A DNA stretch of 64,000 nucleotides from a virus, in the IMG/VR virus record IMGVR_UViG_3300042914_003763, positions 1-64,000 of that record, one strand, 5' to 3'. Both the position numbers and the translations under genes were made by a program. The first letter of the stretch is position 1; the number at the start of each line of letters is the position of its first letter. The notes below the pieces were generated by a model. It saw nothing but the letters and a program-made list of their open reading frames with translations, was not told where the DNA came from and ran no database searches. Positions 5,090 to 41,670 of the stretch are shown in pieces.

Positions 5090-5407
5090 ATGTTTTTTCT
5101 ATCTGATTTATCAACTTATGCTAGATCACTTGGAGCTAAAGATAAAAAGAAAAGAATACGTAAACGTGGAGTATTATTAATTAGTAATAAACTAATGCCT
5201 GGATATAAACCACATCAAACTACATATATTGGTAACAGTGAAAACAATAATAAGATATTACGAGTTCAATATCAACATAAAGATGGAGAAGAAAACAATT
5301 TAGCTTTCTTAGGTAAACCAAGATATCTTAATGTTAAAGAACGAGTACAGTTACTTAAACAAGGTTTTCTTAAAGGTGACTATAAACAAGATGGAACTAC
5401 ACATTAA
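5090..5407 (+). CDS. MFFLSD-tagged small basic protein
   Basis: 105 aa. It begins MFFLSD, then 'YARSLGAKDKKKR', the tag shared by at least a dozen proteins in this window; the codons of MFFLSD contain the dispersed motif TTTTTCTATCT. Unlike its relatives it has no glycine-zipper segment after the basic stretch, but a soluble-looking region with 'PHQTTYIGNS' and 'HKDGEENNLAFLGK'. Probably a virion-associated or capsid-packaged protein by analogy with the other tagged genes; this is inference. Confidence 0.7.
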   Translation: MFFLSDLSTYARSLGAKDKKKRIRKRGVLLISNKLMPGYKPHQTTYIGNSENNNKILRVQYQHKDGEENNLAFLGKPRYLNVKERVQLLKQGFLKGDYKQDGTTH

Positions 5408-5443
5408 GTTATCATATTAATGTAACGTCATAACAACTTAACT

Positions 5444-5737
5444 ATGACTACCTTATTACAAGAACTAAAGTTAGCACATAAAGAACAAATCAAAGTTAGT
5501 TTGTTTATTGAAGGAACAGCTTATCCTTATGATGATGTAATTATCAAAAGTATTAATCGTAGTACGATAACATTTGTTGCACCTTATGTTGATAATAAAG
5601 ATAAGACAACTAAATTAGAACAAACCACAGTTAAGAAAGAATTAGTTAATGGCGTTAGCTATGTTATTGCGACAGTAGATAACGATGATAAGTTAGATGA
5701 TGAAGATGGTTGGATTGTGTTGTTTGAAGATATGTAA
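5444..5737 (+). CDS. Hypothetical acidic protein
   Basis: 97 aa, not recognised. Beta-rich N-terminal half, acidic C-terminal end (DNDDKLDDEDGW). It could be a small head or neck protein given its place after the terminase block, but there is no motif to support this. A terminator follows at 5760. Confidence 0.55.
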   Translation: MTTLLQELKLAHKEQIKVSLFIEGTAYPYDDVIIKSINRSTITFVAPYVDNKDKTTKLEQTTVKKELVNGVSYVIATVDNDDKLDDEDGWIVLFEDM

Positions 5738-5759
5738 CTAACGTTAGATAGAAAAAAGA

Positions 5760-5788
5760 AATGCGTCGTTGAACAAATACGGCGCATT
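5760..5788 (+). terminator. Hairpin AATGCGTCGT/ACGGCGCATT
   Basis: A 10-bp stem with one wobble pair and a 9-nt loop. It is preceded by AGATAGAAAAA (5746) and followed by the partial complement ATTTTCTAT, so the dispersed motif and its complement frame the hairpin. Confidence 0.6.
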
Positions 5789-5816
5789 ACCAATTTTCTA
5801 TTTAGTTAAATAATAA

Positions 5817-5838
5817 AACACCCCGTTACAGAGGCGTT
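5817..5838 (-). terminator. Minus-strand terminator of the HU gene
   Basis: Read on the minus strand, AACGCC pairs with GGTGTT across a 10-nt loop, followed by TTATTATTT. It lies 11 bp downstream of the HU gene stop. Confidence 0.5.
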
Positions 5839-5848
5839 ATTTTCATTA

Positions 5849-6184
5849 TTATGCTGCTACTTCATTTTCAACTTGATTGCTATAACGCAATTTAGATTGA
5901 TAAGCTTTAGCTGCACGGAACTTAGGTGATCTATGTGCAGGTACAGTTACACTACCTTCAGGACGTAGCTTGGTTAGTTCATTAACAATTACACGTTCCT
6001 TAGCATCAATAGCTAAGAACTTACCAAAGTCTTTAATAGTAACAGATTCACCTGCTGCTACAGTTTCAGCAATAATGTTGAAAACTGATGCAATAGCATA
6101 TTCCAACTTGTAAACTGGTAAAACCTTACCGTACTTAACCTCAAGATTCTTGTTAACTAAGGTAGCTAGTTGTTTAACGTTCAT
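5849..6184 (-). CDS. HU/IHF-family DNA-binding protein
   Basis: 111 aa. The sequence matches the HU fold: N-terminal helices ('LATLVNKNLE' and following), then 'GESVTIKDFGKF' (the beta-strand/FG turn of HU) and, after a variable arm, 'VPAHRSPKFRAAKAYQSKL', which corresponds to the HU C-terminal signature ending in the final helix. HU proteins bend and compact DNA and support integration and replication; here it may assist the nearby integrase or condense phage DNA. It is monocistronic, with its own terminator. Confidence 0.85.
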   Translation of the reverse strand: MNVKQLATLVNKNLEVKYGKVLPVYKLEYAIASVFNIIAETVAAGESVTIKDFGKFLAIDAKERVIVNELTKLRPEGSVTVPAHRSPKFRAAKAYQSKLRYSNQVENEVAA

Positions 6185-6269
6185 GATTCAATTTCCTTAT
6201 AGTGTTTGATTATTGTTTCACTATAAGCTAGTATAGTATAGTTATTAGATTAATGACAACTAAATTAAG

Positions 6270-6356
6270 ATGAAATACAAAAAGAAATTACCAGATCATC
6301 TTAGACCTAGTAAGAGCAAGAAGCATAAGTCTGTTAAGTCAGGTAGAAAAAAATAA
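6270..6356 (+). CDS. Very small basic peptide
   Basis: 28 aa beginning MKYKKKLPDHLRPSKS and ending in SGRKK, with more than a third lysine/arginine. It has its own ATG and ends inside an AGGTAGAAAAA motif copy whose codons supply the final GRKK. It resembles the basic blocks of the tagged proteins without the tag. It may be a real short protein or chance; there is no Shine-Dalgarno. Confidence 0.4.
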   Translation: MKYKKKLPDHLRPSKSKKHKSVKSGRKK

Positions 6357-6421
6357 AGTTAAGTGATTACATCAAATTGAAGTTAGGTTTGTCATAGTGT
6401 TTATATCATTAGGTAACTAAG

Positions 6422-7366
6422 ATGGGTCACATTAAACTGTTTGAATACAACGCTAATCACATTGAATATGTACCAGGTCATGAGTTCTTTAATGGTACTC
6501 AGATGGCTAAATCTTGTGGGAAGGAAATTAAACATTGGTTAGAAAACTTACAAGCTGCCGAACTATCTTACGTATTAGCTAGAAAAAATGGAGAGGTCGT
6601 GATTCCGACTTCGCTTGAATGGCAAGGGTTTTCGACCACTCAGAAAATACGAGTAGCTAAACAAAATAAATACTGGAAGTATATTCGGATACATAAAGGG
6701 GGTGACACTCCATATCAAGGTACGTACCTTCATAAGCACATTGCAATTGCTTTTGCTCAATGGTGTAGTGCCGAATTTGCACTTCAAGTATCAGAATGGG
6801 TAGAACAATTAGCTACTCACGGTAAAGTAATTCTCAACCCAACCGAAGCTGCTGACTTTGAGAAGTTCAAACAACAACAACGTAGTAAACTTCAACTACC
6901 ATGTGAACCAGTAGATGAAATTGACTTACAGTTTCGTATATTAGATTGGGTTAACTTATGTGTCAATAACGCACGTTTCAATATCGAAGTTCCTATGTTG
7001 AATAGCAAAAACAAAGTGCGCCGTATTGACTTCATTAAGAACAACGGACGTAATGTAATAGCTTACGAACTGAAACTCAATAAGATAACACTTAATGATG
7101 TAACTGAAGCAATAGCTAATCGTGAATACTTTGAGTTGTTAAGCAATTACTTTAATCGTCCCATTACTTTTATTTTTCTATCTCCATTAGGTATCGCTGA
7201 TAATGCAACTACATTGTTACGAACTATGCCTAATATCAAGTTCCAAACTGTACATGAGTTATGTTATCAGTATTATCTTAAAGGTATTAACAACAAGTGG
7301 AAGAATAATGTTGTTAACTTAACTAACAATATGAACACTAATAGGTTTAGTTGCTTATTCAATTAG
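6422..7366 (+). CDS. KilA-N domain protein with nuclease-like C-terminus
   Basis: 314 aa. Residues about 1-145 are a KilA-N domain, with the diagnostic 'GTYLHKHIAIAFAQWCSAEF' and QVSEWVEQL. KilA-N domains bind nucleic acid and are common in phage antirepressors and regulators. Residues about 168-265 have the order D...(E/Q)xK seen in PD-(D/E)XK endonucleases ('RRIDFIKNNGRNVIAYELKL'), so the C-terminus may cleave DNA or be a degenerate nuclease fold. It sits between the HU and integrase genes, fitting a lysogeny or host-takeover role. It is convergent with the integrase gene. Confidence 0.75.
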   Translation: MGHIKLFEYNANHIEYVPGHEFFNGTQMAKSCGKEIKHWLENLQAAELSYVLARKNGEVVIPTSLEWQGFSTTQKIRVAKQNKYWKYIRIHKGGDTPYQGTYLHKHIAIAFAQWCSAEFALQVSEWVEQLATHGKVILNPTEAADFEKFKQQQRSKLQLPCEPVDEIDLQFRILDWVNLCVNNARFNIEVPMLNSKNKVRRIDFIKNNGRNVIAYELKLNKITLNDVTEAIANREYFELLSNYFNRPITFIFLSPLGIADNATTLLRTMPNIKFQTVHELCYQYYLKGINNKWKNNVVNLTNNMNTNRFSCLFN

Positions 7367-7367
7367 T

Positions 7368-7394
7368 GGGGCATTAAAAGTCACCCCCTTTTTT
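7368..7394 (+). terminator. Weak GGGG/CCCC hairpin with T6
   Basis: GGGG (7368-7371) can pair with CCCC (7384-7387), followed by six T residues that belong to a dispersed-motif copy (7390-7400). It lies between convergent genes. Confidence 0.45.
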
Positions 7395-7405
7395 CTATCT
7401 CTACA

Positions 7406-8656
7406 TTAAGTTATTAACTTCTTCAATCTTTGTACTTCATTACGAAGATATTGATTCTCTATTCTTAACCTATCTAACTCACTTATTTCATTCTTAACAT
7501 CTAACATCTTATCGAATGCTTTGTTATGTGTTGTATGATCCATCCACTTCTGATAAGTCTTAGTATGTTCTTCAACACTATGTCCCATCCACTTAGCTGC
7601 TATATCAACAGCTATTCCTAATTCACTAGCTCTAATAGCATAACGATGTCGTAAGTTATAAGCAGGTTGATTGAAACCATATCTTTGAAATGCTTGATTA
7701 AGTATGCTAATAATGTTTTCAAGTTTAGTTGATGCAGTAACAAATTGCATTACATCTAACAACTCAAACTTATCTACCCATTCTGGATGAATAGGATAAA
7801 CAATACGTTCACCTGTTTTAGTATCATCAGAAATATGTAATACATTACGGTGATTACTTTCAGAAGTAAACTTACTGTAACAATCTTCTGTTAGTAAGAA
7901 TAACTCACTAGGACGTAAACCATAAGTAGCTATCATTCCGAATGTCCATGCTACTTGTCTAGGCATACCATTGAAAGTAGCTTCAATATAACCATCAGTA
8001 GGTAATGTGCGTTTCTTAGGTTGATATTTACATCTGAATTGTTTCCAATCAATATCATCTTTGATTCCAACATGATCAGCTAAACATTTAATAACACGAA
8101 TTAGATCAGCACGTGGTTTGCTGTTAGGTTGTGTTGAATCAATCCAGTTACTAATATTTGATTCAGTTAACAGTTGATCATCAGGTATCTTTAAGAATAT
8201 ATCGGTGTAACTTTTTTCCCAAGTTGATAATGTTTTACGAGACTTCTCTCTTGTTTTCCAATATGATTCGGTAAATGCCTCCTTCACTTCAAACATAGTT
8301 TGGGGTTTAAGTTGTTCAACTTTTTTCTTCTGATAATCAGGTAGTAATAACCACCATTCTTTACCACCATATTTCAAATAGGAATCTACTTCGCGGCATT
8401 TGTTTTCAGCATCAATTACCCCTTGAATAGTGGTTTCATTGAATGGTATCCAATATCTTTTTGTAGTGTTTGGGTCTTCAATTACAGGTAATGTGCCACG
8501 TAAGTACAGACGTTTATTTTTTCTATCTATCAATAACTTTGCTTTACCACTACTGTTGAGACGATTGTTGGCATCAGTAATAGCTGTATCAATTTGTACA
8601 AGAAAATTATCTTGCTTACTACGTGACTCTTCACCAACATACTTCCTGTTAACCAT
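7406..8656 (-). CDS. int: Tyrosine recombinase / phage integrase
   Basis: 416 aa, the usual size. The catalytic domain shows the first Arg in 'TYGLRPSEL', 'HISDDTKTGERIVYPIHPEW' (beta-hairpin region that contributes Lys), 'NLRHRYAIRASELGI' (His-x-x-Arg type box) and 'WMGHSVEEHTKTYQKW' (second His and the nucleophile Tyr). The style is typical of integrases I recall from cyanobacteria and their phages. The N-terminal part includes an arm-binding/core-binding region, and a C-terminal coiled coil (ELDRLRIENQYLRNEVQRL) may mediate contacts. The start at 8656 faces attP, so Int binding upstream would also control its own expression. Confidence 0.93.
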   Translation of the reverse strand: MVNRKYVGEESRSKQDNFLVQIDTAITDANNRLNSSGKAKLLIDRKNKRLYLRGTLPVIEDPNTTKRYWIPFNETTIQGVIDAENKCREVDSYLKYGGKEWWLLLPDYQKKKVEQLKPQTMFEVKEAFTESYWKTREKSRKTLSTWEKSYTDIFLKIPDDQLLTESNISNWIDSTQPNSKPRADLIRVIKCLADHVGIKDDIDWKQFRCKYQPKKRTLPTDGYIEATFNGMPRQVAWTFGMIATYGLRPSELFLLTEDCYSKFTSESNHRNVLHISDDTKTGERIVYPIHPEWVDKFELLDVMQFVTASTKLENIISILNQAFQRYGFNQPAYNLRHRYAIRASELGIAVDIAAKWMGHSVEEHTKTYQKWMDHTTHNKAFDKMLDVKNEISELDRLRIENQYLRNEVQRLKKLIT

Positions 8657-8803
8657 AAGTTTTCTACAATTTCTTCTACACAGTTGTCAAATGTTTACTT
8701 ATCAATCAAGTTATCTGCTAAATATCAAGTGATAAGTTGAAAATGTTTTCCGAGATAGAAAAACACTATTGCAACGATTGTAGAAGAAATGTTTATTTTA
8801 GTC

Positions 8804-8864
8804 AACAGATTGCTAATCTGTTAGAGGCGCAAGCTTCTCATGGGTTCAAATCCCATCCTCTCCG
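8804..8864 (+). other. attP: attP core: 3' part of a tRNA-Ser(GCU) gene
   Basis: From the anticodon arm on, this folds as a class II tRNA: stem ACAGA/TCTGT with loop TTGCTAA (anticodon GCT, serine AGC/AGT), variable arm AGAGGC-GCAA-GCTTCT, T arm ATGGG-TTCAAAT-CCCAT, then acceptor strand CCTCTCC and discriminator G. The matching 5' acceptor GGAGAGG and the D arm are absent upstream, so it is not a functional tRNA gene. A 3' tRNA piece beside an integrase is the standard phage attachment core, restoring the host tRNA on integration. Confidence 0.8.
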
Positions 8865-8870
8865 TTGTTT

Positions 8871-8889
8871 GAGGTATTTAAAATACCTC
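8871..8889. terminator. Palindrome GAGGTATTT-A-AAATACCTC
   Basis: A perfect 9-bp palindrome 7 nt after the tRNA fragment, followed by TTCTTT. It may be the terminator captured with the tRNA 3' end, or a recombination-accessory site. Confidence 0.5.
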
Positions 8890-9028
8890 TTCTTTGGATT
8901 GCTTCTACATAACTTTCTACAACCAAAGGTATATGTTCCTATTCTGCAACAATTGGGACGTATACCTTTCTACATATTTTTCTACAGTGGTTACAATTAT
9001 AAGTATTAAGCCACCACGAAGTTCTTTC

Positions 9029-12000
9029 ATGTTAACTACTTACGTCCTCAATCAGAATAATATACTAAGTAATTACAGCAAGCCTAAACAAACACCACCT
9101 GTTAAATCGCAACTATCAAACAAACAGGTAGAAAAAATAGTAAGACAACAGGATATTGTTGTTAATAGATTTATAGATACGCTTGATAATAATATTCAAA
9201 ACTATCTAATTGGTAATATCGGTAAAAGTAGTATTAACTTTTTTCTACCTATTAAGAATGCACTATGGCAACTTTGGAATGAGTCATGGTTATTGGGACA
9301 AATTAATGCTGCTGAAGAATTACGTGCTGCTAAGTTTACTAGTAGTAGTGATGAGTTAATTAAATTTAACAATGCTGATGATTTATTACGTGCAGATCGT
9401 AAAAAAAGAAGAGAAGAAGCTAAACAAACTTATTTAATAGAAAAATTAAAAGGATTTAATGATAAATACAAAACAGGAAATGAATTTGATGATGATAAGA
9501 TAAGAAAATATGTTGAGTCAACAGGTATAAAAAATGTAACACCTGAATTAATAGCAAGATATAAAGATGAATTAGTAAAAGATGAGGAAGATTTATTTAA
9601 AAGATTAAAAAATAGCGAAACCCCTAAAACCGTTAAACAAAAGATAGACAAAAAAGAACGTGTTGCAAAAAAACAAATTAAAAAAGCAAGTAATGTGACT
9701 AATGATAAAAAAGAATTAACTAATGAAGAAAGAGAACAGCTTAAAGATAAATACTACGAAGGTAGACAGACTGAAAATGAACAAATAGGTAAAGTTAAAC
9801 CAGTTAAAGAACGTAAGGAAACTAAAGTAGATAACAAACAATATAAGTTTCCTAGTAACAAATCAAGTAACGAAGCTTATGAACAAGTACAACAGTTACG
9901 TGAACAACAAGAAGAAACACTTCCATCTAACCTTGAACAAACTAGTTTTGGACAAGCTTATCTAGATAAAAGATTAGATGTAATTAGTGGTTCATTGAAT
10001 CAACAGTTTGTTACGTCTTATAAAGATAAGTTAGTTAAAGTAGATAATAATAACAAAGTTATTGGTGGTATAATACCAGATTATTTTAACGATAATAGAT
10101 CAGATAAAGATAAGAGCTATGTTACTAAAATACGTCGTATGTATATTAGTGATACAAGAAATATAGATGAATATAAGCAAAAGGATAATGATTTAACTAG
10201 AATTATAAGTAGTTATAAAAAAGTTGAAGTTGTAGATAATACAGAGAGTTTAAAAAGAGATATAGGTAAATTAAGTCTTGAACTTCGTAATACACCTGTT
10301 AGGCAACGTCAGAAAATAGCTGATAAAATTAACGAATTAGAACAAGAATTAGCTAACGAAAATAAACGAATTAAAAAAGAAATAGATGAATCAGAAGATA
10401 AGAGTAAACAATTTGTTGTTATATCACAACAATATAAGGAGAAACTTAAACTAACTAAGGATACTTATTCAATTAAAGAATTAAATCAAATAAGAAGTGA
10501 TGTTCGTAAACAGATACGACAACAAGATCAGAACTTCTATAACACTAAACGTATTGCACTAACTGAACTTAATGCTGCATATAACTTAGGTAGATTAGAT
10601 TATTACCAGAATAACAATATTGATTATGTACGTTGGGAAGTTAGTGTTGAACACAAACGTAGAGAACTTAATAATGCTAACAAGAATGATGCTGGTACTA
10701 TAAGAAGTTACAATAGTACGTATTATGGTAATTTAGCTGGCAACTATAAAGGATCTGTATGTCCTGTATGTTGGGAACGTAACGGTAAAGAGTTCTCAAT
10801 TGATGAAGTAACAAGTAATCCTGAATTACAAATACCAGTTCATCCTTTTTGTGCTTGTATATTAGTACCAGTTACAGATAAAGATGATAATGATAAAGAT
10901 AGAAAAAAGAAAATTAAGTTAAAAAAATCAGAGTTATTAAATAATAGTGTATTGAAATGGGCTGCTGGTGCTGGTTTACTTATACTTGGTACTGCGGCGA
11001 TGTATGCTGCATTTCGTATGACAAGACGTAATCCAATACAACCTACCATAGCTGAACAAACACCTCAAGTAACTAAAATAATACCTAAAAAAGTTAAAGC
11101 ACCTGAATATATTAAACGAATAGCAGATGAAACTATAGAAACGATCATTGAAAATGAAGAACAGTTAATTAGAAAAGTTAAAGCTGCTAAGAACGTTAAG
11201 ATTAAACCGTCGCAACAACCACAAGTTGATAATGATACTAATGAAATAGTAGATGATGTTGCTAATCAAGTAGATGATTCACCAAGTCTTATTGATGTAG
11301 CTAGAGAAAACCAAGATGAGATATTAGAACAATTACCGCGTAACTTAGATGATATAGACAATGATGTTCCTATTCCATTAGACGAACTACAACCTAAAAG
11401 TAGTAAGCTACCTGAATTACGTAATCAATTAGATGAAGAATTTGTTTATGTAGATCCTGTTCCATTAAACATACCAACTAAAACTGTAGATATAAAACCT
11501 TACGAACAACAAGTTAACAGAGCAATTAATCAAGATTATTTAGATGAAGTAGGAGATGTACTTGATGATGCAATAAGACAGCGTAATAACTTTAATACTG
11601 TTAACCCTGCAAGTGTTGTTAGTATTCCAACTCGTAATGAATTAGATGAGATAACTGAACGATTACAAGGATATAAAGAATATGTACGTAGTGCATTAAC
11701 TAAGGAACAACGTAATGCAATAATAAAACAATACCGTAATGACATAAGGCAAGTTAATAATATCATTAATAAGTACGAACAAGATAATGTACTTATCTAC
11801 ACTGAAATAAGAACTCTAATGTCATTAAGAGAAGAAGGTATATCTAAACTTACTAATGTATTAGGTGAGGTAGATGATGACATAGCAACTATATTTGGTA
11901 GTACCAATATAGGAAGACAAATAAATCAAGAGTTGATTGATTTAGAAAGAATACTTATTAATAGATATGATGATTTAAACGTTAACTTAGGTGGTTATTA

Positions 12001-12460
12001 CAATAGAGCTAATGAAATTAAAAGTGAGATAGTTAATGCTAATCCCAACTTAATATTAGATTATTTAAAGAAAATAAAAGGTACTTTAACTACATCCCTT
12101 AGCAAGATTAGAACTAATGACTTTAATATTAATTATGTAGATAGAGTATTAAATGAATTAGAAGTTATATTCGGTAAAACAGGTAGAATAAGTGATAAGG
12201 ATTTCTTTTATTATTCAAGTAGATTAGATGAATTAACTAAAGAAGTTAAGACATTTGAAAAACAAATTACAAAAACACTATTAGATGTTGATTTAAAATC
12301 CCTAATTAAACAAATGTCTAATTCCCCTAACCCAGATAATGATTTATTGATTATGGCTATCGTATTATCTGATTACCGAAATATAATTAAAACAACTTAT
12401 AATAGGATTAATAGTTTGAATGTTAATCTAATAACTAAATTTAATTCGTCGCTTGATTAA
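9029..12460 (+). CDS. Minor head protein (SPP1 gp7 / Mu F-like) with long extension
   Basis: 1143 aa. I chose the ATG at 9029 because upstream in-frame codons run through the attP region. Residues about 500-630 carry the head-morphogenesis signature: 'LNAAYNLGRLDYYQNN', then 'CPVCWERNGKEFSIDEV' and 'PVHPFCACILVPV', i.e. the CxxC...HP.C.C metal-binding ending typical of SPP1 gp7/Mu gpF proteins. The first 450 residues are lysine- and glutamate-rich coiled coil. After the Cys motif there is one membrane-like segment ('WAAGAGLLILGTAAMYAAF', about 685) and a further 430 residues of acidic coiled coil. The family is usually 300-500 aa, so both extensions are unusual. Gp7-type proteins bind portal and DNA inside the head. 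Confidence 0.8.
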   Translation: MLTTYVLNQNNILSNYSKPKQTPPVKSQLSNKQVEKIVRQQDIVVNRFIDTLDNNIQNYLIGNIGKSSINFFLPIKNALWQLWNESWLLGQINAAEELRAAKFTSSSDELIKFNNADDLLRADRKKRREEAKQTYLIEKLKGFNDKYKTGNEFDDDKIRKYVESTGIKNVTPELIARYKDELVKDEEDLFKRLKNSETPKTVKQKIDKKERVAKKQIKKASNVTNDKKELTNEEREQLKDKYYEGRQTENEQIGKVKPVKERKETKVDNKQYKFPSNKSSNEAYEQVQQLREQQEETLPSNLEQTSFGQAYLDKRLDVISGSLNQQFVTSYKDKLVKVDNNNKVIGGIIPDYFNDNRSDKDKSYVTKIRRMYISDTRNIDEYKQKDNDLTRIISSYKKVEVVDNTESLKRDIGKLSLELRNTPVRQRQKIADKINELEQELANENKRIKKEIDESEDKSKQFVVISQQYKEKLKLTKDTYSIKELNQIRSDVRKQIRQQDQNFYNTKRIALTELNAAYNLGRLDYYQNNNIDYVRWEVSVEHKRRELNNANKNDAGTIRSYNSTYYGNLAGNYKGSVCPVCWERNGKEFSIDEVTSNPELQIPVHPFCACILVPVTDKDDNDKDRKKKIKLKKSELLNNSVLKWAAGAGLLILGTAAMYAAFRMTRRNPIQPTIAEQTPQVTKIIPKKVKAPEYIKRIADETIETIIENEEQLIRKVKAAKNVKIKPSQQPQVDNDTNEIVDDVANQVDDSPSLIDVARENQDEILEQLPRNLDDIDNDVPIPLDELQPKSSKLPELRNQLDEEFVYVDPVPLNIPTKTVDIKPYEQQVNRAINQDYLDEVGDVLDDAIRQRNNFNTVNPASVVSIPTRNELDEITERLQGYKEYVRSALTKEQRNAIIKQYRNDIRQVNNIINKYEQDNVLIYTEIRTLMSLREEGISKLTNVLGEVDDDIATIFGSTNIGRQINQELIDLERILINRYDDLNVNLGGYYNRANEIKSEIVNANPNLILDYLKKIKGTLTTSLSKIRTNDFNINYVDRVLNELEVIFGKTGRISDKDFFYYSSRLDELTKEVKTFEKQITKTLLDVDLKSLIKQMSNSPNPDNDLLIMAIVLSDYRNIIKTTYNRINSLNVNLITKFNSSLD

Positions 12461-12462
12461 TT

Positions 12463-14013
12463 ATGTTTTTTCTATCTGATCTATCTACATTTAAGAAACA
12501 AAAAGATGAAGAAAAGAAACCTAATCGTACTATTCAAAAAGTTAAAGGTATTGCGTTATTAGGAGGATCTGGTATTGTTGGTACTCAAGCTGTAAGAAGC
12601 GGTTTACCTAGATTAGTTGGTGCTAGGTTAGAACAACATGGTACAAGTCGTAAAGCTGCTGCAAATATTATTAAAGAAGGTTATTTAGATCCTGCTTATG
12701 GTGGTGCAGAAAGTGGTGTTACTGCATCAATGAAGTTACCAAAAGAGTTTATGGATAGAGCTAAAGGTTACACATTTATTAGCGGTAAGAACCCTAATCA
12801 TCCATTTTGGAATGAACGTAACCCATTAAGTCCTATATGGGATGTAATTAATAGAAAAGTACAAGTATTAGGTTATCGTGGATCTAAAGCAGGTAAATTA
12901 ACAGATAAAGATGTAGAAAAAGGGGCTAAGTTTATTGGTGGTACTCTATCTTCAATGCTGAATCCACTTGAGAAAAAATTAAATGATATGACTCCTGAAA
13001 AGTATTTAGAAGAAATCAAAAAAAAAGCCGAAAGTGGAAATCGTTTCTATAAGTCACGTTATGAACGATTGAAAAATAATTCAGATGAACTTAAAGCTGA
13101 AGTTAGAAGAACTCAAAAAGATATTAAAAAAGTAATTAAACAAACTAAAGATATAGCTAAGAGAAGTTATAAAGATCCCAGTAGAATTAAAGGTATTAAA
13201 AATACACAACTTAAATATAAAGAATTATTTAATGAATATAAAGATGAATTTAAAGAATATATTAAGAACAAAGATAACATTCTTAGAGTTAGTAGTTATG
13301 AAACAAATAAACTTTTAAAAGGATCTTCATATAAACGTACATTGGATAAATTTTTAAGTGATAAAGCTAAAAGTGGAGATAAAAAGGCAGCTAGATTACT
13401 TAAATTACAAGAGTCATTACAAGATCAAATTGGAACTCAAAAAACGTCTAAATATTTAGGTTTAGGTGCTGGTTGGACTCAAAAGCTAGTTAGTTCTCCT
13501 GCTCTTGGTGCTGTTGGTGTAGGTAAAACATTATATATTCCTGGTACAGATGATTATTTCAACAATACTGAAAGGTTTAAGTATGACATAGATGATCCAT
13601 TTGGTAACCCATTAAAAATGGGTAAGTCATTTCAATCAGAACAAGGTGGTTTTGGTGGTAATGCACTTAAAACAAAAGAAAAAGTAAGAGCATTTGGTAA
13701 TAGGTTTGCTGCAACTAAATATCTGTTAGAACAAGAAGGTAATGGTAATTTATTCAAAGGTGCTGGTAAGTTAATAGCAGCTAACCCTAAACGTGCATTA
13801 GCTGGTGCAGCAATATTAGGATTAGGTGGTGCTGGTAGTTATATGTTAGGTAAGAAAGGTATTAATTTAATTAAAGGTGGTCAACCTGATAAATTAAGAG
13901 ATAGAAAAAGCAAAGTAAAATCGTATGTTCGTAAAGGTAAATTAGTTAAAGGTTTTGAAAGATTGAATCCATTTTATAATAAAAATAAAGTCAAACGTCG
14001 TAAATCTAATTAA
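12463..14013 (+). CDS. MFFLSD-tagged protein with ADP-ribosyltransferase-like region
   Basis: 516 aa. Tag MFFLSDLSTFKKQKDEEKK at the start. Residues about 25-45 are a glycine-rich hydrophobic segment. At about 61-85, 'LEQHGTSRKAAANIIKEG' followed by a Gly-rich 'AYGGAESG' resembles the HGTS...A..I..G motif of PARP/KptA-type ADP-ribosyltransferases, with 'GYTFISG' as a possible downstream strand; I did not find an unambiguous catalytic Glu. A second glycine zipper lies at about 446-470, and the C-terminus carries the KSKVKSYVRKGKLVKGF motif seen in four neighbours. The T4 Alt enzyme is a known packaged and injected ADP-ribosyltransferase, so an analogous role is possible but inferred. Joined to the previous gene by a 2-nt spacer. 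Confidence 0.6.
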   Translation: MFFLSDLSTFKKQKDEEKKPNRTIQKVKGIALLGGSGIVGTQAVRSGLPRLVGARLEQHGTSRKAAANIIKEGYLDPAYGGAESGVTASMKLPKEFMDRAKGYTFISGKNPNHPFWNERNPLSPIWDVINRKVQVLGYRGSKAGKLTDKDVEKGAKFIGGTLSSMLNPLEKKLNDMTPEKYLEEIKKKAESGNRFYKSRYERLKNNSDELKAEVRRTQKDIKKVIKQTKDIAKRSYKDPSRIKGIKNTQLKYKELFNEYKDEFKEYIKNKDNILRVSSYETNKLLKGSSYKRTLDKFLSDKAKSGDKKAARLLKLQESLQDQIGTQKTSKYLGLGAGWTQKLVSSPALGAVGVGKTLYIPGTDDYFNNTERFKYDIDDPFGNPLKMGKSFQSEQGGFGGNALKTKEKVRAFGNRFAATKYLLEQEGNGNLFKGAGKLIAANPKRALAGAAILGLGGAGSYMLGKKGINLIKGGQPDKLRDRKSKVKSYVRKGKLVKGFERLNPFYNKNKVKRRKSN

Positions 14014-14023
14014 CTAATTAATT

Positions 14024-14683: not shown

Positions 14684-14689
14684 TAATTA

Positions 14690-30736: not shown

Positions 30737-30753
30737 TACTAAACAGTAATATA

Positions 30754-32245: not shown

Positions 32246-32250
32246 CAACT

Positions 32251-33064: not shown

Positions 33065-33121
33065 TTATAATACGCCGCATAATTAACTTCATTCATTTTT
33101 CTACCTCTAACTAATTAACAT

Positions 33122-33913: not shown

Positions 33914-33932
33914 TTAATTACGGTAATACAAA

Positions 33933-34394
33933 ATGACAGTTCATACCATTGAATATAAAGATGAGAAGGGTAATGTAATAGGAACTGACATTATTACAGT
34001 TCCTAAGAGATCAAAACTTAAAGAGATATTAGTATTACAACAAGCATTAATTGAGGGAATGTATCAGCACATTGATCCCATTAAAGTAAAATGTGTTTAT
34101 TCAGGTAGTTTATTACTTGATGATGCTGTATGGGGTAATGTAGAAAAATTAGCTAAGTTAATACCTGTTATCGGTAAAGAAGGTGGTATTGATTTAGATA
34201 AACTTGAAAGTGACATTCCTCAATTAATCAAACTATTCTTTTCTCAAAGTTGTGATGATGTAGGAAACATTACCGTTGATTTAGAAGATAATTCGTTTTT
34301 TCTACCTTCTGTACTATCGGAGTTATATAGATTTAACTTCCCTAAGTTCATAAAAGAGATGTTCGACAAAGGACAAGTAGTGAAACAGGAATAA
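33933..34394 (+). CDS. Tail assembly chaperone 1
   Basis: 153 aa, helical and acidic at the C-terminus, directly between the tail tube and tape-measure genes: the position of gpG-like chaperones. The dispersed motif (34307) encodes FFLPS. Many such genes use a programmed -1 frameshift into the following small gene; I could not find a convincing slippery heptamer. Confidence 0.55.
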   Translation: MTVHTIEYKDEKGNVIGTDIITVPKRSKLKEILVLQQALIEGMYQHIDPIKVKCVYSGSLLLDDAVWGNVEKLAKLIPVIGKEGGIDLDKLESDIPQLIKLFFSQSCDDVGNITVDLEDNSFFLPSVLSELYRFNFPKFIKEMFDKGQVVKQE

Positions 34395-34423
34395 ACCAAC
34401 AACCAATAAGCGGTAATTCCGAT

Positions 34424-34639
34424 ATGGAAGAATTAGCTGCATTAATTGAAATATATAAAACAGTTGATGCAGCTTTTCTCATTAGGGATAAACTAACTCA
34501 TCTTGAAATACAAGACTTGATTAAAGAAACAAATGAGTTACGTAAAGATTCAAAACTTAAAGATGCAGAAGAGATAGAAAAAAACTATGCGAAATTAAAA
34601 GAAGAAGATCCAACTATAAGTCAATTCATGAATTACTAA
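34424..34639 (+). CDS. Tail assembly chaperone 2 candidate
   Basis: 71 aa, helical and charged (ETNELRKDSKLKDAEEIEKN). It lies in the -1 frame relative to the preceding gene, and that frame is open from about 34346, so a gpG/gpGT-type fusion is possible. Its stop is followed one nucleotide later by the tape-measure ATG. Confidence 0.45.
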   Translation: MEELAALIEIYKTVDAAFLIRDKLTHLEIQDLIKETNELRKDSKLKDAEEIEKNYAKLKEEDPTISQFMNY

Positions 34640-34640
34640 T

Positions 34641-37600
34641 ATGTCTCAATTAATGAATGATTATCAACAAGAAGTAGCCCTTAAATTTGAAGGAGAAGAT
34701 AATCTTAGTAAAGTTGTTGATAATATTTCTGAGCGTATTAGTAATATGCAAACTAAGGTTATGGCTGCTAACCTTGGACTTGGAGGATTGAAAAAAGTTA
34801 CAGGTGATAATGTAACTACATTAGAAAAATTTGGAAAACAAATTGCAGCTACAGATAAATTATTAATGAAAGCATTCAATGTAGCAACTTTCGCTAAAAT
34901 CGGCGCAGTATTAGCTGATGGTATTAAGAATGCAACAAGAGAATTATCAGGTTTTTCTACAGGAATTAAAGCATTTACCGCTTCAGGATACACAACTCAA
35001 ATAATTGATGATTTCACTAAGGTTCGAGATGCAATCTTAGGTAGTAAAGAAGCAGTAGATCAATTCAGTTTGCAAGCTTTAACTGCTTATAATCGCTACA
35101 AGAAAGCACAAACTGAAGTAGAAGTATTATTCAGTAAAGGTAGTGAATTTATTGGTGATTTAAGTAAGAACATTCAAAATCTTGTTAATAACGATCTCAA
35201 AAATGCTATAAGTTCGATTGATGCGTTAGGTGCAGCATATCAAGCGGCATCTGCTAGTTTCACAGAAGCAAGTGAAAATACGGCTGTGATGACAGCAGGT
35301 TTGAAGTTAGCTAAAGCTGGTGGTGCTGACACTGGTGCGACAATGAAAGTGTTGACACAAACAATACGTGCTTATAATATGTCAGCTACAGACTCCAATA
35401 AAGTAGCAGCAGTATTGAATAAAACTATTCAGTTAGGTATCACAACGATGCCTGAACTTGCTAATGGTTTTGCACAATCAGCCGTAACAGCTAACGCCGC
35501 AAAAGTTAAATTAGAAGAATTAGCAGCAGGCGTAGCAGCACTAACTCTACAAGGTTTTGATACTCCTAGTGCATTAACTGGATTAGAAGCATTATTCAGA
35601 AACATCATTAACAAAACACCTCAAGCAGAAGCGGCATTACGTAGTTTGAGAGATGAAGTAGGTAAACCAATTAGATTCGATATTGCTGAAATTAAGACTA
35701 AAGGTTTTGCCAAGGCATTAGATGATTTAAATAAAGCGGCTAAAGGTAACGCTGAAACATTAGCAACTATTATCCCAGAAGCCACTGCTTACAATACAGC
35801 ATTAGCGTTAATGAGTAATAATGCTCAACAATTAAAAGATAATAGTAAATCAATGTTTGAGATTACTGAAACAGGTAAAAAAGCTAGAGAAACATTAGAT
35901 GAAGTATTTGGCATTAAGATATCATCACAAGCTGAAAAGTTTGATGCAATTATTAATCGTATAACAGAACAATTTATTCAGTTCGGTGAACAAATAGCAC
36001 CATTCTTTCAAGTTGGTGTAGATGTGTTAGAAAAAACTGTTAGTGCTTTATCTTCTATCTCTCCAGAAATGAAGAAGATAATTGCACAATGGATAATATT
36101 TCAAATGGGCGCAGGTCAAGTTACTAATGCAATTGGACAATTAGTAGGTGCAGCAACTCAAGCGTTTATGATATTCCAAGGTTGGAGGATTTTTACAGGT
36201 TTGTTTAATGGTGAATTACTCAAACAAGTAAAGATAGTACAAGAACTTGCTAAAGCTAATATTGGTTTATTACCTGTAGTTAAACAAGTAATAGGAATAG
36301 ATCAACAACATCTGTTACTAGGACAAGAACTTAATTTACAACAACTTAATAGATTTCAAATTATAGGTAAGTTACGTGAACAAAATTTAGGACTAATTGC
36401 ACAAGCTAAACAGTTAATAGGAATAGATCAATCACATCTACTAGTAGGGCAACAATCATTAACATTAGATGAACAACGAGAAGAAATATTAAATAGGTTA
36501 GTTGAACAAAATAAAGACTATAAAAAAGTATCTAAAGAATTAAGTAACATAGAAAAAGAACATTTAGATATTACAACTAAAGTTAAAGAAGCAGAAGATA
36601 AGTTATCTGAATCATATACTAAGTTAGCTAAAGATAAATACGATAAATCAAAGTTAGAAAAAGAACTTAATTCATCTACTGCTAAATCGGCAGATGAACA
36701 ATATCAGTTAGCAGAACGTTATCAACAACAACAAGAACTTATAGCTAAATCTGAAGCTGAATTAGCAGTTAACAAGAAAAATAAACTTGACTTAGATGAA
36801 AAAGCAGCTAAGTTACAACAAGAAGTTGCTGATAAAACCGCTAAAGCTGAAAAAATCTCACAAACAGTTAAAGATAATACGCTCAAAATACAAAAGGCGC
36901 AGACGTTAGCAGAAGAATTACAACGTAAAGCTGTTGAAGCTAGAACATTAGCTGATTTAGCATCTAGTCAAGCTCAAACAGCTAAAGCAGCCGCAGATGC
37001 AGCAGGTGGAACTAATGCAACACTTAACGCAGCAGCAGAAGTAGCATTAGCTAACGCAACAACTCTTGAAACAGCAGCAGAGGTAGCTAACACAACAGCT
37101 ACTAACGCTAATAATGCAGCAAGAACTTTAGGTACAACATTAGCAACAGAACAAGGTATTGCTGAAGGTAGATTAATTAAAATTAGAACATTAGCAGGAG
37201 AACAAATAGTTAAAAATACATTACTTAACCGAATGTTAGGTTTTTCATTTAAAGACTTAATTCCCAAAATGGATGACGTTAAAAAGACAAGTGGCAACTT
37301 ATGGACTAACTTAAATAAACCAATTAATTTTAGTGGAATTAAAGATGGCGTTAGTAGTTTATTTAGTAAGCTTAGTGGAATGTTACCTATTGTTGGACAA
37401 ATAGGAACTAAGTTATTAACATTCGCACCAATACTATTACCAGTAGCAGGAGCAGCAGCATTACTATATGATCAATTCGCTGGTACTTCTGCTCAAGTTA
37501 GAAAACTGCAAGAAGATTTAACTAAGATAAATAAAGAACTAGAAGTATCAAAACTTAAAACACTACAAGACTTAGATAGTAAAGGTAAGTTGAGTTATGA

Positions 37601-40600
37601 AATGAAGAAACAACTTATTATGATGGAACACAATAATGAGTTAGCTAAACTTAATGGATTTGAAAATACAAAGTTAGTAGGTATATGGGAAAACATTGGT
37701 AATGCAATAGGTGCTGCATTTAATGGAGTAATTGGTTTTGGTAAAGCTATATTTGATATGTTTGATAAAATATTACCTATTTTCAGTTTATATAAAGCAA
37801 TACGGTATGATCAAGTTATTTCTACCTTTAGTGAAATTGAAGCACAGATAGAAAAAACAAGTGCTGCGACTTTAAAATTTGCTGAAGTTAATAGCAAATT
37901 AAAACAAGGATTCACTGATATTGAAAAAGTAAACAAGAAAATACGTGAAGGTAAATCACTTGAACCAGATGATATAACTAAGTTAAAAAATCAAGCTGAA
38001 GAACGACTTAAATTAATTGATGATGAGATAGCAGCTAATGATAGACGACTTGAAGCATTAAAAGAAAAGTTAAAAGATTATGATGCACTTGATCCCGAAA
38101 AACAAAAACAAGCTGCTGCTGAAGATCAAGACTTAGCTAGCCGTAGAGATGTACTTGAAGCACAAAATGAAAATTTAAAGAAGCAACGACAAATAAATGC
38201 TGATACAAGTAAAGCAAATATAGAATACTTACAACAACGTAATATATTTGTTAAACGGTTACAAGAAGCTAATCCTAATAAAAACGATCCTAATAATAAG
38301 AAAAATGACTTCTTAGATGAAGACTTTGAAGGTCAAGTTGGCAATAAAGTTAACTCGTTACAAGTAAGAATGCGCCGTAGTTTTAGGCAATCAAATGAAG
38401 ACTTACAAGAGTATGCTAAGAAAGTTGAAGCTACATTAGATGGTACTAATAAATATATAGATAGAGAAGGTAAAGAAGTTAAACTTGATGTTACTCAATT
38501 AGGACAATATGTTCAAGACTTTGATAAGAATGTAGAAACAACAGTAGCAGGAATAGGTCAGTTATATGAAGGTAATTATATTAATGCTAAGGAAGCTAAT
38601 GAAAAGTTACAAGCAGTATTGAATCAACAAGTAGGTGATACTAAAAAGAAAGTTAAAGATTTGTTTTCAACAGAACAATTACAAGAGTATTATGCTCAGA
38701 TAATTGAATACAGTAAGAATGCCAGTAAAAAACAAATAGACCTATTAAGTAAAGATGCTGAAATACAACAACAATTAATATCAGCAGGTGTTAAATCACA
38801 AATTGATGGCAGTAAGGAAATTAGAAAGATACAACAACAACAACTTAAAGCACAGATAGATGACTTAGAAAAAACATTACAATTACAACTTGATATTGCA
38901 CCAGCATTAAAACAAGAGTTAGAAAAACAATTAAAACTACTAAAAGCACAATTTAATGCGGCGGATAAAGAAGATCAACGTAAGTCAATAGATGAACGTT
39001 ATCAACAACAACAAGTTGCGTTAGATAAAGAAGTAGCCGCATTTAAGTTAAGTCGTGCCAAGTTTGTTTCTACAGAAAAAGAAAGTATTGTTAAGTTAGA
39101 GCAACTACAAAAACAACAACTATTACAACAACAAAATAAATTACAAGAACAACTTAAACTTGTTGGTAATGATAAAGAAGAACGTACTAAGTTAGAAACA
39201 GAGTTATTGAACTTACAACTACAGTATCAACAAATTGTTACTAGTAGTTTACAACGTGAATTTGACAAACGTAATAAGCAATTAAGTAATGATATAGAAA
39301 GACAGAAACTCGAATACGGTAAGTTAACAAGAACGTTATCTAGTACAACAGATAGCTTACAAGAAGAATTGAAGATTATTGAAGCTAGAAACAAATCTAT
39401 TCTTGCAGCTAATCAATATGAAACAAGTAGATTACAAAACCAACTTCGTGTTACTGCTGATATTGAAAAACGTGCCGATATTGAAGTACAACTAGTTGAA
39501 TTAAAAAACAAGAATAGTGAAGTAACATTAGCACAAGAAGCTAAGTCATTACAATATCAACAGAAGTTAGTAGATTTAGGTTTCCAAAAACAACAAATAG
39601 AACTTGATATTAATAAGTTACAAAATGAATCACAACGTAAGTTACTAGAACTAGAACTAAAACGTGCTTTAGAACAAAAGCAAAGTAAAGAAGAAATTGA
39701 AACACTACAAACTAAATTAGATATCAATATTGAAGAATCTAAATCATTAGAAAGTAAAAGTAAGTTACAACAAGAAGTTAGACGTAATCAATTAGAAATA
39801 AACAACTTAACTAAACAAGATTTAGAGTACAAATTAGCATTAACTAGAGAAGGTGGTGAATTAGATGTTGAAATAGCTAAACAAAATCGTGTATTAGCAA
39901 CTTATGAAAAACAAGCACAACAAGCTAAAGTAAGTGCTGAATTAGCTGAAATATCTGCTAACAAACAACTTGTACAAAATAACTTAATACTGAAGTCATA
40001 CGAAAACAGAATTAACTTAACACAGAAACAACTTGATTTAGAGCAACAACAACAAAATAATACTCAACGTATGTTTAAGTTAGCTGGCGATCTTGCAACA
40101 ACAGATTATCAGAAACAAGAGTTTGCTAAGTTAGCAGCACGTCAAGAGTTAATGGCGTTAGACAAGAAACAAGAGATAGAAAAACAATTATTAGAGATAC
40201 AAATAAAAAGTAATAACTTAGCTTTACAAAGACAAGAGATAGAACAAAAGACAGCAGAACTAAAATTAGCAGCGGAACTTAAAGTACAAATAGCTGAAAC
40301 AAAAAAAGTCTTAGCTAGTAAAACTGCTACCAATGAAGATAAAGCAGCAGCATCGGCGCAACTTGAAGCTAAACAATTTGCATACGAAGCTAAGTTAGCA
40401 GAACGTCCACTACTAGAACAACAACGACAGTTAAGTAAGTTTGATGATAATATCAAGCGTTATCAGTTACAACAAAATCAAAGTAATGAAGTACAAGATA
40501 AGTCAGTTGCTTATGCTAAGACTACTTTTGGTATTGGTGACGATATGGAAATATATCGAGCTATCAGAAATAACTTAGCATCTGTAATTGATGATGTAAC

Positions 40601-40913
40601 TAATGAGATTAATAATAAAGACCTTAACTATAACAAAATTTTTTCTAACTCTAATGTAGTTGTACCAGTTGCACCTAAGTTAACTTACGATACTGTAGGT
40701 AAGAATAACATAGTACCATTAAGTAACAACACTAATACAATTAGTAATGATAAACAAGTTGTAATTAACTTCACTAACACTAATGATGTAACTATTGAAG
40801 GTAATGCAAGTAGTAAAGAAGTTACTAACGGTATTAAAGATGCTAATGATGATGCAATTAAAAAGTTGTACGATGTATTTAGGAAAACAAATGTTGAATT
40901 AGGAAATAAGTAA
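34641..40913 (+). CDS. Tape measure protein
   Basis: 2090 aa. N-terminal domain 'LKFEGEDNLSKVVDNISERI' followed by the typical gly/ala-rich assembly region (residues about 200-330 include 'ASFTEASENTAVMTAGLKLA'), a hydrophobic region near 930-960 ('LLTFAPILLPVAGAAALLYD') and long glutamine/lysine coiled coils to about 1950. Tape measures set tail length; at the usual 0.15 nm per residue this predicts a tail near 300 nm. The C-terminal 'DEGNASSKEV'-like segment ends in LGNK, whose codons are part of a 21-bp direct repeat (see 40893). Confidence 0.9.
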   Translation: MSQLMNDYQQEVALKFEGEDNLSKVVDNISERISNMQTKVMAANLGLGGLKKVTGDNVTTLEKFGKQIAATDKLLMKAFNVATFAKIGAVLADGIKNATRELSGFSTGIKAFTASGYTTQIIDDFTKVRDAILGSKEAVDQFSLQALTAYNRYKKAQTEVEVLFSKGSEFIGDLSKNIQNLVNNDLKNAISSIDALGAAYQAASASFTEASENTAVMTAGLKLAKAGGADTGATMKVLTQTIRAYNMSATDSNKVAAVLNKTIQLGITTMPELANGFAQSAVTANAAKVKLEELAAGVAALTLQGFDTPSALTGLEALFRNIINKTPQAEAALRSLRDEVGKPIRFDIAEIKTKGFAKALDDLNKAAKGNAETLATIIPEATAYNTALALMSNNAQQLKDNSKSMFEITETGKKARETLDEVFGIKISSQAEKFDAIINRITEQFIQFGEQIAPFFQVGVDVLEKTVSALSSISPEMKKIIAQWIIFQMGAGQVTNAIGQLVGAATQAFMIFQGWRIFTGLFNGELLKQVKIVQELAKANIGLLPVVKQVIGIDQQHLLLGQELNLQQLNRFQIIGKLREQNLGLIAQAKQLIGIDQSHLLVGQQSLTLDEQREEILNRLVEQNKDYKKVSKELSNIEKEHLDITTKVKEAEDKLSESYTKLAKDKYDKSKLEKELNSSTAKSADEQYQLAERYQQQQELIAKSEAELAVNKKNKLDLDEKAAKLQQEVADKTAKAEKISQTVKDNTLKIQKAQTLAEELQRKAVEARTLADLASSQAQTAKAAADAAGGTNATLNAAAEVALANATTLETAAEVANTTATNANNAARTLGTTLATEQGIAEGRLIKIRTLAGEQIVKNTLLNRMLGFSFKDLIPKMDDVKKTSGNLWTNLNKPINFSGIKDGVSSLFSKLSGMLPIVGQIGTKLLTFAPILLPVAGAAALLYDQFAGTSAQVRKLQEDLTKINKELEVSKLKTLQDLDSKGKLSYEMKKQLIMMEHNNELAKLNGFENTKLVGIWENIGNAIGAAFNGVIGFGKAIFDMFDKILPIFSLYKAIRYDQVISTFSEIEAQIEKTSAATLKFAEVNSKLKQGFTDIEKVNKKIREGKSLEPDDITKLKNQAEERLKLIDDEIAANDRRLEALKEKLKDYDALDPEKQKQAAAEDQDLASRRDVLEAQNENLKKQRQINADTSKANIEYLQQRNIFVKRLQEANPNKNDPNNKKNDFLDEDFEGQVGNKVNSLQVRMRRSFRQSNEDLQEYAKKVEATLDGTNKYIDREGKEVKLDVTQLGQYVQDFDKNVETTVAGIGQLYEGNYINAKEANEKLQAVLNQQVGDTKKKVKDLFSTEQLQEYYAQIIEYSKNASKKQIDLLSKDAEIQQQLISAGVKSQIDGSKEIRKIQQQQLKAQIDDLEKTLQLQLDIAPALKQELEKQLKLLKAQFNAADKEDQRKSIDERYQQQQVALDKEVAAFKLSRAKFVSTEKESIVKLEQLQKQQLLQQQNKLQEQLKLVGNDKEERTKLETELLNLQLQYQQIVTSSLQREFDKRNKQLSNDIERQKLEYGKLTRTLSSTTDSLQEELKIIEARNKSILAANQYETSRLQNQLRVTADIEKRADIEVQLVELKNKNSEVTLAQEAKSLQYQQKLVDLGFQKQQIELDINKLQNESQRKLLELELKRALEQKQSKEEIETLQTKLDINIEESKSLESKSKLQQEVRRNQLEINNLTKQDLEYKLALTREGGELDVEIAKQNRVLATYEKQAQQAKVSAELAEISANKQLVQNNLILKSYENRINLTQKQLDLEQQQQNNTQRMFKLAGDLATTDYQKQEFAKLAARQELMALDKKQEIEKQLLEIQIKSNNLALQRQEIEQKTAELKLAAELKVQIAETKKVLASKTATNEDKAAASAQLEAKQFAYEAKLAERPLLEQQRQLSKFDDNIKRYQLQQNQSNEVQDKSVAYAKTTFGIGDDMEIYRAIRNNLASVIDDVTNEINNKDLNYNKIFSNSNVVVPVAPKLTYDTVGKNNIVPLSNNTNTISNDKQVVINFTNTNDVTIEGNASSKEVTNGIKDANDDAIKKLYDVFRKTNVELGNK
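40893..40913 (+). repeat. Left copy of a 21-bp direct repeat flanking a tagged gene
   Basis: This stretch runs from G40893 to A40913 and contains GAATTAGGAAATAAGTAA. It matches 41679-41699 at 20 of 21 positions. It covers the tape-measure C-terminal codons and stop. Confidence 0.75.
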
Positions 40914-40932
40914 ACCAATCATTAATATACAT

Positions 40933-41670
40933 ATGTTATTTTTTCTATCTGATTATAAATATTCTAATTATGCTAGAACATTAGGTGCTAAAGATAAGAA
41001 AAAGAGAAAAAGTAATTTGTTACGTAACGTAGCTATAGGTGCTGGTGGATTAGCATTAGCTGGCGGACTAGGTTATTTAGCATTACGAGGAAAAGGTAAA
41101 CCAAGCGGTGGATCTAATTCGCTTAGTGGTGCTAGTTCACCATCATCATCTACTACACCTTCTGTATCAAATAATAGAGCATTAAATGATGTTGATGTTA
41201 AAATTGAAGCACCTAAAATTAAACAATCTAAACCACAAATAGAGTCTCAATCAAGAATAACACCTCAGAGTGAACCCACTAAACCATATCCAACTAGAAG
41301 TTTCACACAAGATGAATTATTACAACGTGGTAACTTGAAAGCTAGATATAATTCAGATCCTTTATATACAAATAAGAAGGTAGGTTTATATGGTAGCTTA
41401 ACTAAAAAACAACTTAATTCAAGACGTATTGCAGAGAGAAGACAAAAAATTGCAAATGAGTTAATTACTTCTCCTAATAAAAATAATTATACAGGTATTA
41501 ATAGCAATAGGTATAGTTACGTTCAGAGACCTGGTAAATCAACATTGTATGGATCTAAAGATTCTTACGATACACAAATAAGAAAATCAATATCTAAAGA
41601 TATTAAGTCACTGAACAAATCCTACATAGATAGTAATTACAAAACATACCGTAACTACATTAACTTATAA
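40933..41670 (+). CDS. MLFFLSD-tagged glycine-zipper protein
   Basis: 245 aa. Start MLFFLSDYKYSNYARTLGAK, then DKKKRK, zipper 'NVAIGAGGLALAGGLGYLAL', a low-complexity Ser/Pro linker, then a basic domain (RYNSDPLYTNKKVGLYGSLT, about 135-155). It lies between the tape-measure gene and the next tail gene and is flanked by a 21-bp direct repeat, so it looks like an inserted cassette. Confidence 0.72.
   Translation: MLFFLSDYKYSNYARTLGAKDKKKRKSNLLRNVAIGAGGLALAGGLGYLALRGKGKPSGGSNSLSGASSPSSSTTPSVSNNRALNDVDVKIEAPKIKQSKPQIESQSRITPQSEPTKPYPTRSFTQDELLQRGNLKARYNSDPLYTNKKVGLYGSLTKKQLNSRRIAERRQKIANELITSPNKNNYTGINSNRYSYVQRPGKSTLYGSKDSYDTQIRKSISKDIKSLNKSYIDSNYKTYRNYINL

Follow-up and report, generated by a model that had tools for sequence, protein, structure and literature searches.

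A recurrent tag on small basic proteins of a siphovirus-like cyanophage, a candidate prohead-targeting and processing signal, overlaps a genome-wide DNA word

The 64,000-base stretch of DNA analysed here (the window; bases 1-64,000 of the 117,113-base IMG/VR virus record IMGVR_UViG_3300042914_003763) belongs to a tailed phage, a siphovirus-like cyanophage, in which a short peptide tag, mostly beginning with MFFLSD, recurs on small basic proteins encoded among the head and tail genes. On balance we think it probable that two signals are superposed at these sites, namely a protein tag for prohead targeting and processing and a DNA word dispersed over the whole genome. The tag consists of (S/V/A)(T/E/N)(F/Y)(A/G/K)(R/K), with the predicted cut after F/Y, and of a KDKKKRK-like (or VKSYVRKGK) basic stretch, usually behind a short hydrophobic M-x-x-(L/M)-(S/N/T)-D, and would mark small basic proteins that have glycine-zipper helices as destined for the prohead. 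Its basic region may draw them into the acidic core of the scaffold; the head protease would cleave behind F/Y as the head matures, just as at the A-x-F sites in the scaffold and in the protease itself. Once trimmed, the proteins would remain associated with the DNA and exit together with it, serving as ejection or membrane-pore proteins. In the window lineage only, the start of the tag would have been rewritten as MFFLSD by the dispersed word TTTTTCTAYCT.

There are 12 FFLS(D/N) starts in the window, spanning 5.1-41.0 kb and followed by (S/V/A)(T/E/N)(F/Y)(A/G/K)R and usually by a basic KDKKKRK-like stretch; a search of positions 64,001-117,113 of the record for the tag found none. The pattern TTTTTTCTATCTGA occurs 40 times in the window at up to two mismatches against 2.1 expected, the maximum of 100 shuffles being 5. 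The recurrence of the tag is far beyond chance, and its sameness is partly a matter of the DNA level. All of the MFFLSD loci listed in the initial annotation, made from the letters alone, are present where it had placed them; it had missed the copies without MFFLSD at 20632, at about 25213-25266 and ending at 14428. The copies are listed below (ORF, open reading frame), with counterparts from a second lineage of related records (lineage 2).

5090..5164, plus strand: tag MFFLSDLSTYARSLGAKDKKKRIRK, N-terminus of the ORF 5090-5407
12463..12528, plus strand: degenerate tag MFFLSDLSTFKKQKDEEKKPNR in the ORF 12463-14013, which has a VKSYVRKGK element at its C-terminus
14024..14101, plus strand: tag MFFLSDYDVSEYRKLGAKDKTPRKRN, its ORF ending at a TGA after 26 codons
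14375..14428 (start approximate), plus strand: basic element repeated at a C-terminus, ELTTFKRGRDRKKKAKRMG, with no MFFLSD
14690..14779, plus strand: tag MFFLSDVKSVEFAK of the ORF 14690-16264, with VKSYVRKGR in place of KDKKKRK
15857..15934, plus strand: internal tag LFFLSDLEVTFARRLGSKDKVKRMSR within the ORF 14690-16264, with L in place of M
20632..20739, plus strand: variant tag PIAAFSMEDY...AAEFKRGKDKKKRK of the ORF 20632-21207, without the DNA word
21217..21288, plus strand: tag MFFLSDYNISEYGRKKGSSDKIPS of the ORF 21217-21498; lineage-2 counterpart MQLLSD..ADFARTPGSKDKKPRK
24736..24810, plus strand: tag MFFLSDINVEFGRLLGSKDKKKRKS in the ORF 24691-25587, 15 codons past the longest-ORF start at 24691
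about 25213..25266, plus strand: second internal copy DVIEFGRRTGSKDKKKRK in the ORF 24691-25587, without MFFLSD, also kept in lineage 2
30035..30118, plus strand: tag MFFLSDFQENLEFSKGRKKGSRDRKKRV of the ORF 30035-30271; lineage-2 counterpart MFLMTD..TANFKRGRDKVKRK
30275..30340, plus strand: (M)FFLSDYQSIGFKRGKDKKKRK in the tag frame, which differs from that of the ATG at 30274
31351..31416, plus strand: tag MFFLSNLSEYGRGKDKRPRKKR (MFFLSN) of the ORF 31351-31875
32251..32319, plus strand: tag MFFLSDIDSSNYGRGKDRKKRKQ of the ORF 32251-32598
40933..41013, plus strand: tag MLFFLSDYKYSNYARTLGAKDKKKRKS (MLFFLSD), 3' of the tape measure gene, with the counterpart MFILNDVDLSNYGRGRDRTKRKS at the equivalent position in lineage 2

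The KDKKKRK that had been described behind the tag is found at most loci, but 12463 and 14690 have no clean copy of it. The tag at 24736 lies inside its longest ORF, and the tag at 30274 has no in-frame ATG: the T-run there has nine T where eight would preserve the frame, so that the tag frame, running from 30275, lacks an ATG of its own. Sequencing error, mutation or slippage are candidate causes of this nine-T run (30274-30290). The copy that ends at 14428 reads ELTTFKRGRDRKKKAKR and the one at 20632 reads PIAAFSMED...AEFKRGKDKKKRK. The ORF 14690-16264 is a fusion of two tagged units. In the relative L007 the TGA of the 14024 ORF is replaced by TGG and the reading frame stays open. The ORF 24691-25587 is open behind its internal tag in the window and in L008, and a frameshift follows that tag in L006 and L007 (KDKKKEKFID, then a stop). 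A further basic element, V-K-S-x-x-R-K-G-K-x-V-(R/K), recurs at 12463 (C-terminus), 14690, 16267, 17476 and 18153 (minus strand) and in lineage-2 counterparts, and sometimes stands directly behind an F/Y-x-K site in place of KDKKKRK.

A family search with the tag, recommended as a check in the initial annotation, did turn up relatives when an alignment of four tag units (their basic half) was used, and these form lineage 2; a scan at the DNA level with the exact tag MFFLSD returned near-identical contigs only. A 68.7-kb lineage-2 record is syntenic with the window, shares a major capsid protein (MCP) that is about 46-49% identical, and holds 11 tag matches and a single copy of the window's DNA word. 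Lineage-2 records carry 5-11 tags each, with no window word at the tag starts; the tags of the 68.7-kb record start with MYILSD, MFILND, MFLMTD, MFLMSD, MQLLSD or MFILSD in diverse codons and continue as STFARRLGSKDKKKRE, SNYGRGRDRTKRK, TANFKRGRDKVKRK and similar sequences. Pairs at corresponding positions of the two lineages include 40933 and MFILND, 30035 and MFLMTD, 21217 and MQLLSD, and 14690 and MFLMSD, and in lineage 2 the tag also occurs within fused ORFs and without the prefix. Lineage 2 thus has the tag with diverse codons and different prefixes, and therefore the tag is real at the protein level. The (F/Y)(A/G)R...KDKKKRK part is a protein-level motif, and in the window lineage only the start of the tag has been made uniform at the DNA level in addition.

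Every tag lies inside the head and tail gene block in both lineages, in agreement with the placement among structural genes given in the initial annotation. The landmark genes of the window are the following.

at 3401: terminase gene
23449..24657, plus strand: MCP (phrog_29), untagged, which served as the query for relatives
at 34641: tape measure protein gene

The tagged proteins have net charges of +11 to +60 (22 of 22), against -69 to 0 for the untagged structural proteins (n=13), and about 18 of the 22 have the hydrophobic Gly/Ala-rich stretch that had been described as a glycine-zipper continuation. The cargo behind the tags at 20632, 30274 and 31351 was swapped or deleted in close relatives with the tag retained: a 222-base segment behind the 30275 tag is missing in L007, and the 31351 ORF of L007 differs beyond position 31468. 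The internal copy at 25213..25266 immediately precedes a domain also found in the portal protein of Aphanizomenon phage CL131, a protein that was detected in the virion proteomics of that phage (PMC6293099), which ties this cargo domain to virions, though only in that phage. The gene with this copy adjoins a small basic protein with a DUF5872 (PF19197) match (25584-25982). Around the presumed cut, the 28 tag sites of both lineages, a set compiled by hand, have S/A/V at P3, E/T/N at P2, F/Y at P1, A/G/K at P1' and R/K at P2'.

The closest isolated relatives are phages infecting filamentous cyanobacteria, namely the Pseudanabaena phages Pam2 and PA-SR01, Nodularia phages and phage CL131, the last linked to the window by one domain in common; Pam2 and PA-SR01 are about 35-37% identical to the window in the protease and 27% in the capsid protein. 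Two genes of the block bear on the predicted processing.

19356..20618, plus strand: putative head maturation protease, with H75 and S139 conserved, containing GNFG, AAFS and AEFG (predicted cut after F)
21518..22465, plus strand: acidic putative scaffold, net charge -69, containing AEFS, AEFK, GNFS, AHFS and ASFG (predicted cut after F)

The protease family matches phrog_976 in 13 of 13 aligned homologs (best E 5.7e-5). No relative in the PDB and no credible Pfam match was found for it, and no prophages turned up when genomes were scanned with the protease. Several of the scaffold sites lie at positions common to lineage 2 and Pam2. Examples of sites at homologous positions are AEFSVGS, which the window has in common with lineage 2, and, for the scaffolds, GNFS...R-x-A-x-FS. 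The motif A-x-F-(A/S/G) was counted in protease plus scaffold 5 times against 0.4 in shuffled sequences for the window, 6 against 0.6 for lineage 2 and 5 against 0.8 for Pam2, above all 500 shuffles in each, an enrichment to be read as descriptive and not as a blind test, since A-x-F is short and had been spotted before counting. The MCP, tape-measure and terminase controls of the same phages showed no such enrichment.

Read most simply, these data would mean that the tag serves for targeting to the prohead core and for processing, and that its bearers are a variable set of internal ejection proteins, possibly membrane-active; about a dozen tagged small basic proteins probably go inside the head and are trimmed there. 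Besides the descriptive nature of the enrichment, several points weigh against this. For the window phage and lineage 2 alike, we infer head entry, cleavage and ejection from sequence. Taken by itself, the window protease has an E-value of just 0.02 for phrog_976, and its AlphaFold model has a pLDDT of 30. In the tag profile S is favoured at P3, while P1 may also be Y and P1' may be K, so that the profile resembles A-x-F-(A/S/G) without matching it exactly. The tail part of the cluster holds one tagged gene, 3' of the tape measure gene, and a lineage-2 protein has MARKLGSKDKKKRK as its very beginning. This last protein, together with the internal and C-terminal copies, would suit a binding module, and no part of the tag is as regular as the basic stretch; both points agree with a peptide that is not cleaved at all and that targets or docks the proteins, its basic stretch binding the scaffold, the portal or the packaged DNA and (F/Y)(A/G)R forming part of the binding surface. 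We regard such a docking peptide as unlikely, though the best of the alternatives, and it leaves unexplained the small-x-aromatic-small pattern common to the conserved sites of protease and scaffold.

The second of the two superposed signals is at the DNA level. The coding sequence of MFFLSD coincides with TTTTTTCTATCT and its codons are invariant: at the 12 tag sites the FFLS codons are TTT in 24 of 24, TCT in 12 of 12 and CTA in 10 of 12 cases, against a genome-wide usage of 73%, 21% and 12%, respectively; in the basic half of the tag, codons vary freely. The uniform codons are explained by the word TTTTCTAYCT. No other word family is as over-represented in this genome: it has 122 copies where about 4 are expected, about 1 per kb in 117 kb.

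439..63737, both strands: dispersed word TTTTCTAYCT, 71 of the 122 genome copies being in the window, genic and intergenic; the copies at tag starts encode FFLS

Its copies are evenly spread and near-equal on the strands (30 forward and 34 reverse in a region with nearly all genes on the minus strand), and their information is limited to about 11 bases. Genic copies fall in several frames, sense and antisense, and 39 copies (32%) are intergenic or partial against 12% of non-coding sequence in the genome, by gene calls from a crude ORF set. The spacing is slightly more regular than random (coefficient of variation 0.81 against 0.99; as low in 0.7% of simulations). Words one mismatch away stay close to background (86 against 56), and this, with the confinement of the information to about 11 bases, led us to reject a mobile repeat with decaying copies. 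We also rejected a role solely as a ribosome-binding site, as most copies are inside genes and on both strands. About 9 copies are reversed and lie 9-15 bases upstream of starts (AGRTAGAAAA, ribosome-binding-site-like), and about 12 are forward and lie 17-42 bases upstream of starts. At 102726-102775 of the full record, outside the window, two inverted copies surround a short palindrome-like loop, a candidate hairpin.

MFFLSD had been taken in the initial annotation as the core of the signal, a claim that has to be given up: several copies lack it and its nucleotides are fixed by the genome-wide word. One could go further and suppose that MFFLSD is merely the translated word, with a nucleic-acid function only (a DNA-binding site or start-codon element), and that the proteins share only a basic, glycine-rich composition. 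The invariant codons, the 122 copies dispersed on both strands and in several frames and the near absence of the word from lineage 2 (1 copy in the 68.7-kb record, 2 in a 112-kb record) would fit this. However, tags of lineage 2 still begin with M-x-x-(L/M)-(S/N/T)-D and still contain (F/Y)(A/G)R..KDKKKRK, in different codons; the tag is kept there without the word, and therefore a protein-level tag exists too, so that we consider a function in nucleic acid only quite improbable.

Still more doubtful is a non-virion role at the host membrane late in infection, in lysis or remodelling, with the glycine-zipper helices as the functional part. Short Gly/Ala-rich helices with basic flanks are what such proteins would have, but the tagged genes are interspersed among those for head and tail, one tagged protein has the domain of the CL131 portal, a protein detected in CL131 virions (PMC6293099), and the motif is common to protease and scaffold. 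Finally, the word could be a recombination hotspot that shuffles cargo, tag and word being one module-exchange device, as the replacement of cargo between close relatives might suggest; this is very improbable and already weakened, since the distance between an exchange breakpoint and its closest word is 71-814 bases for the ten examined (median about 400; random median 332) and lineage 2 lacks the word at its tag starts. Ahead of a putative tail-fibre gene, the segment 26955-27316 has diverged strongly (78%) between contigs that are otherwise about 99% identical.

Words of this kind differ between the related phages. The word of the window has 57 copies in a 50-kb close relative (control pattern 1) and 1-3 in other records, with 2 in a 112-kb lineage-2 record, and TTTTCTAYCT is absent or rare in the other phages tested, near-identical relatives excepted. 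Lineage 2 has a word of its own, TTTTCTTAC, with 50 copies in the 68.7-kb record against 1.6 expected, and with 87 copies in a 111.6-kb record (45 and 42 by strand; 1 for the reversed control pattern). Pam2-like phages show a weaker excess of CTTTTTCTG (21-32 copies against 3-7 for controls). A paired-word scan of 84,980 species genomes for a host with the word gave 80 scattered stretches with no genome prominent, and the host may be unsequenced. Our tentative proposal, which may well prove wrong, is that related cyanophages carry lineage-specific, non-palindromic words of 9-12 bases at about 1 per kb and on both strands, read by a co-diverged, phage-encoded DNA-binding function, and that in one lineage the word took over the beginning of a prohead-targeting tag that nonetheless survived, leaving a DNA code and a protein code in one stretch.

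The virion genes of phages of filamentous cyanobacteria are mostly unannotated, and if the tag packages proteins, it would offer a modular route to identify, and perhaps to load, their head cargo; a protease specificity after F/Y is then predicted. The DNA word is a measurable genome feature, distinct between related phages and separate from the tag, and it calls for caution in that a nucleotide constraint can fix an apparent peptide tag.

Among known systems, the capsid-targeting sequence (CTS) of phage T4 brings proteins into the prohead, is taken off by the prohead protease and ends in a gp21 site, hydrophobic-x-Glu. The tag resembles it as one short peptide on otherwise diverse small proteins of the virion-gene region (12 starts plus variants); T4 internal proteins are highly diverse, with only the CTS conserved, and are targeted to the scaffolding core (PMC3012670). 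It differs in being also internal (15857, 25213 and fused lineage-2 ORFs) and C-terminal (ending at 14428), in having F/Y and not Glu at the presumed P1 in 28 of 28 tag sites, where the cut is predicted, and in being followed by a basic stretch and a glycine zipper; no sequence homology between the CTS and the tag was found. The T4-like packaging signal of the initial annotation stands in part: the gene-block location, the basic charge, the cargo swapped behind a retained tag and the A-x-F-like site speak for it indirectly, but MFFLSD is not the core and the tag is not strictly N-terminal. Because the tag is not restricted to N-termini and its site lacks Glu, we did not file it under the CTS. 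The prohead protease gp245 of Salmonella phage SPN3US cuts several head proteins, and also itself, at A-X-E, with serine favoured at P1', and in two of its substrates the propeptide is just 20 and 24 residues long, respectively (PMC10052503). The likeness is one short motif with a small P3 residue over several head proteins, cleavage being predicted here; the difference is Glu at P1 there and an aromatic P1 in this siphovirus-like cyanophage. The putative head maturation protease is encoded beside the tagged genes.

For the DNA word, HIP1 (GCGATCGC) of cyanobacteria and their phages is likewise a short genome-wide word, genic and intergenic, and phage CL131 has it at high density; HIP1 is a palindrome, whereas TTTTCTAYCT is non-palindromic, AT-rich and different between related phages. 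Stoperators lie mostly in one orientation relative to transcription. Those of Cluster A mycobacteriophages are asymmetric phage sites that are scattered genome-wide and to which a phage protein binds (PMC9283540, PMC6550527), and the word shares with them its asymmetry and its spread over a phage genome but is near-equal on both strands, mostly inside genes and present in more copies. Finally, the DNA uptake sequences of the Neisseriaceae mediate uptake by way of a receptor. They are also short non-palindromic words at about 1 per kb with an excess of exact copies, and their lineages too use distinct words (compare PMC3630211), the difference being that the word described here sits in phage genomes.

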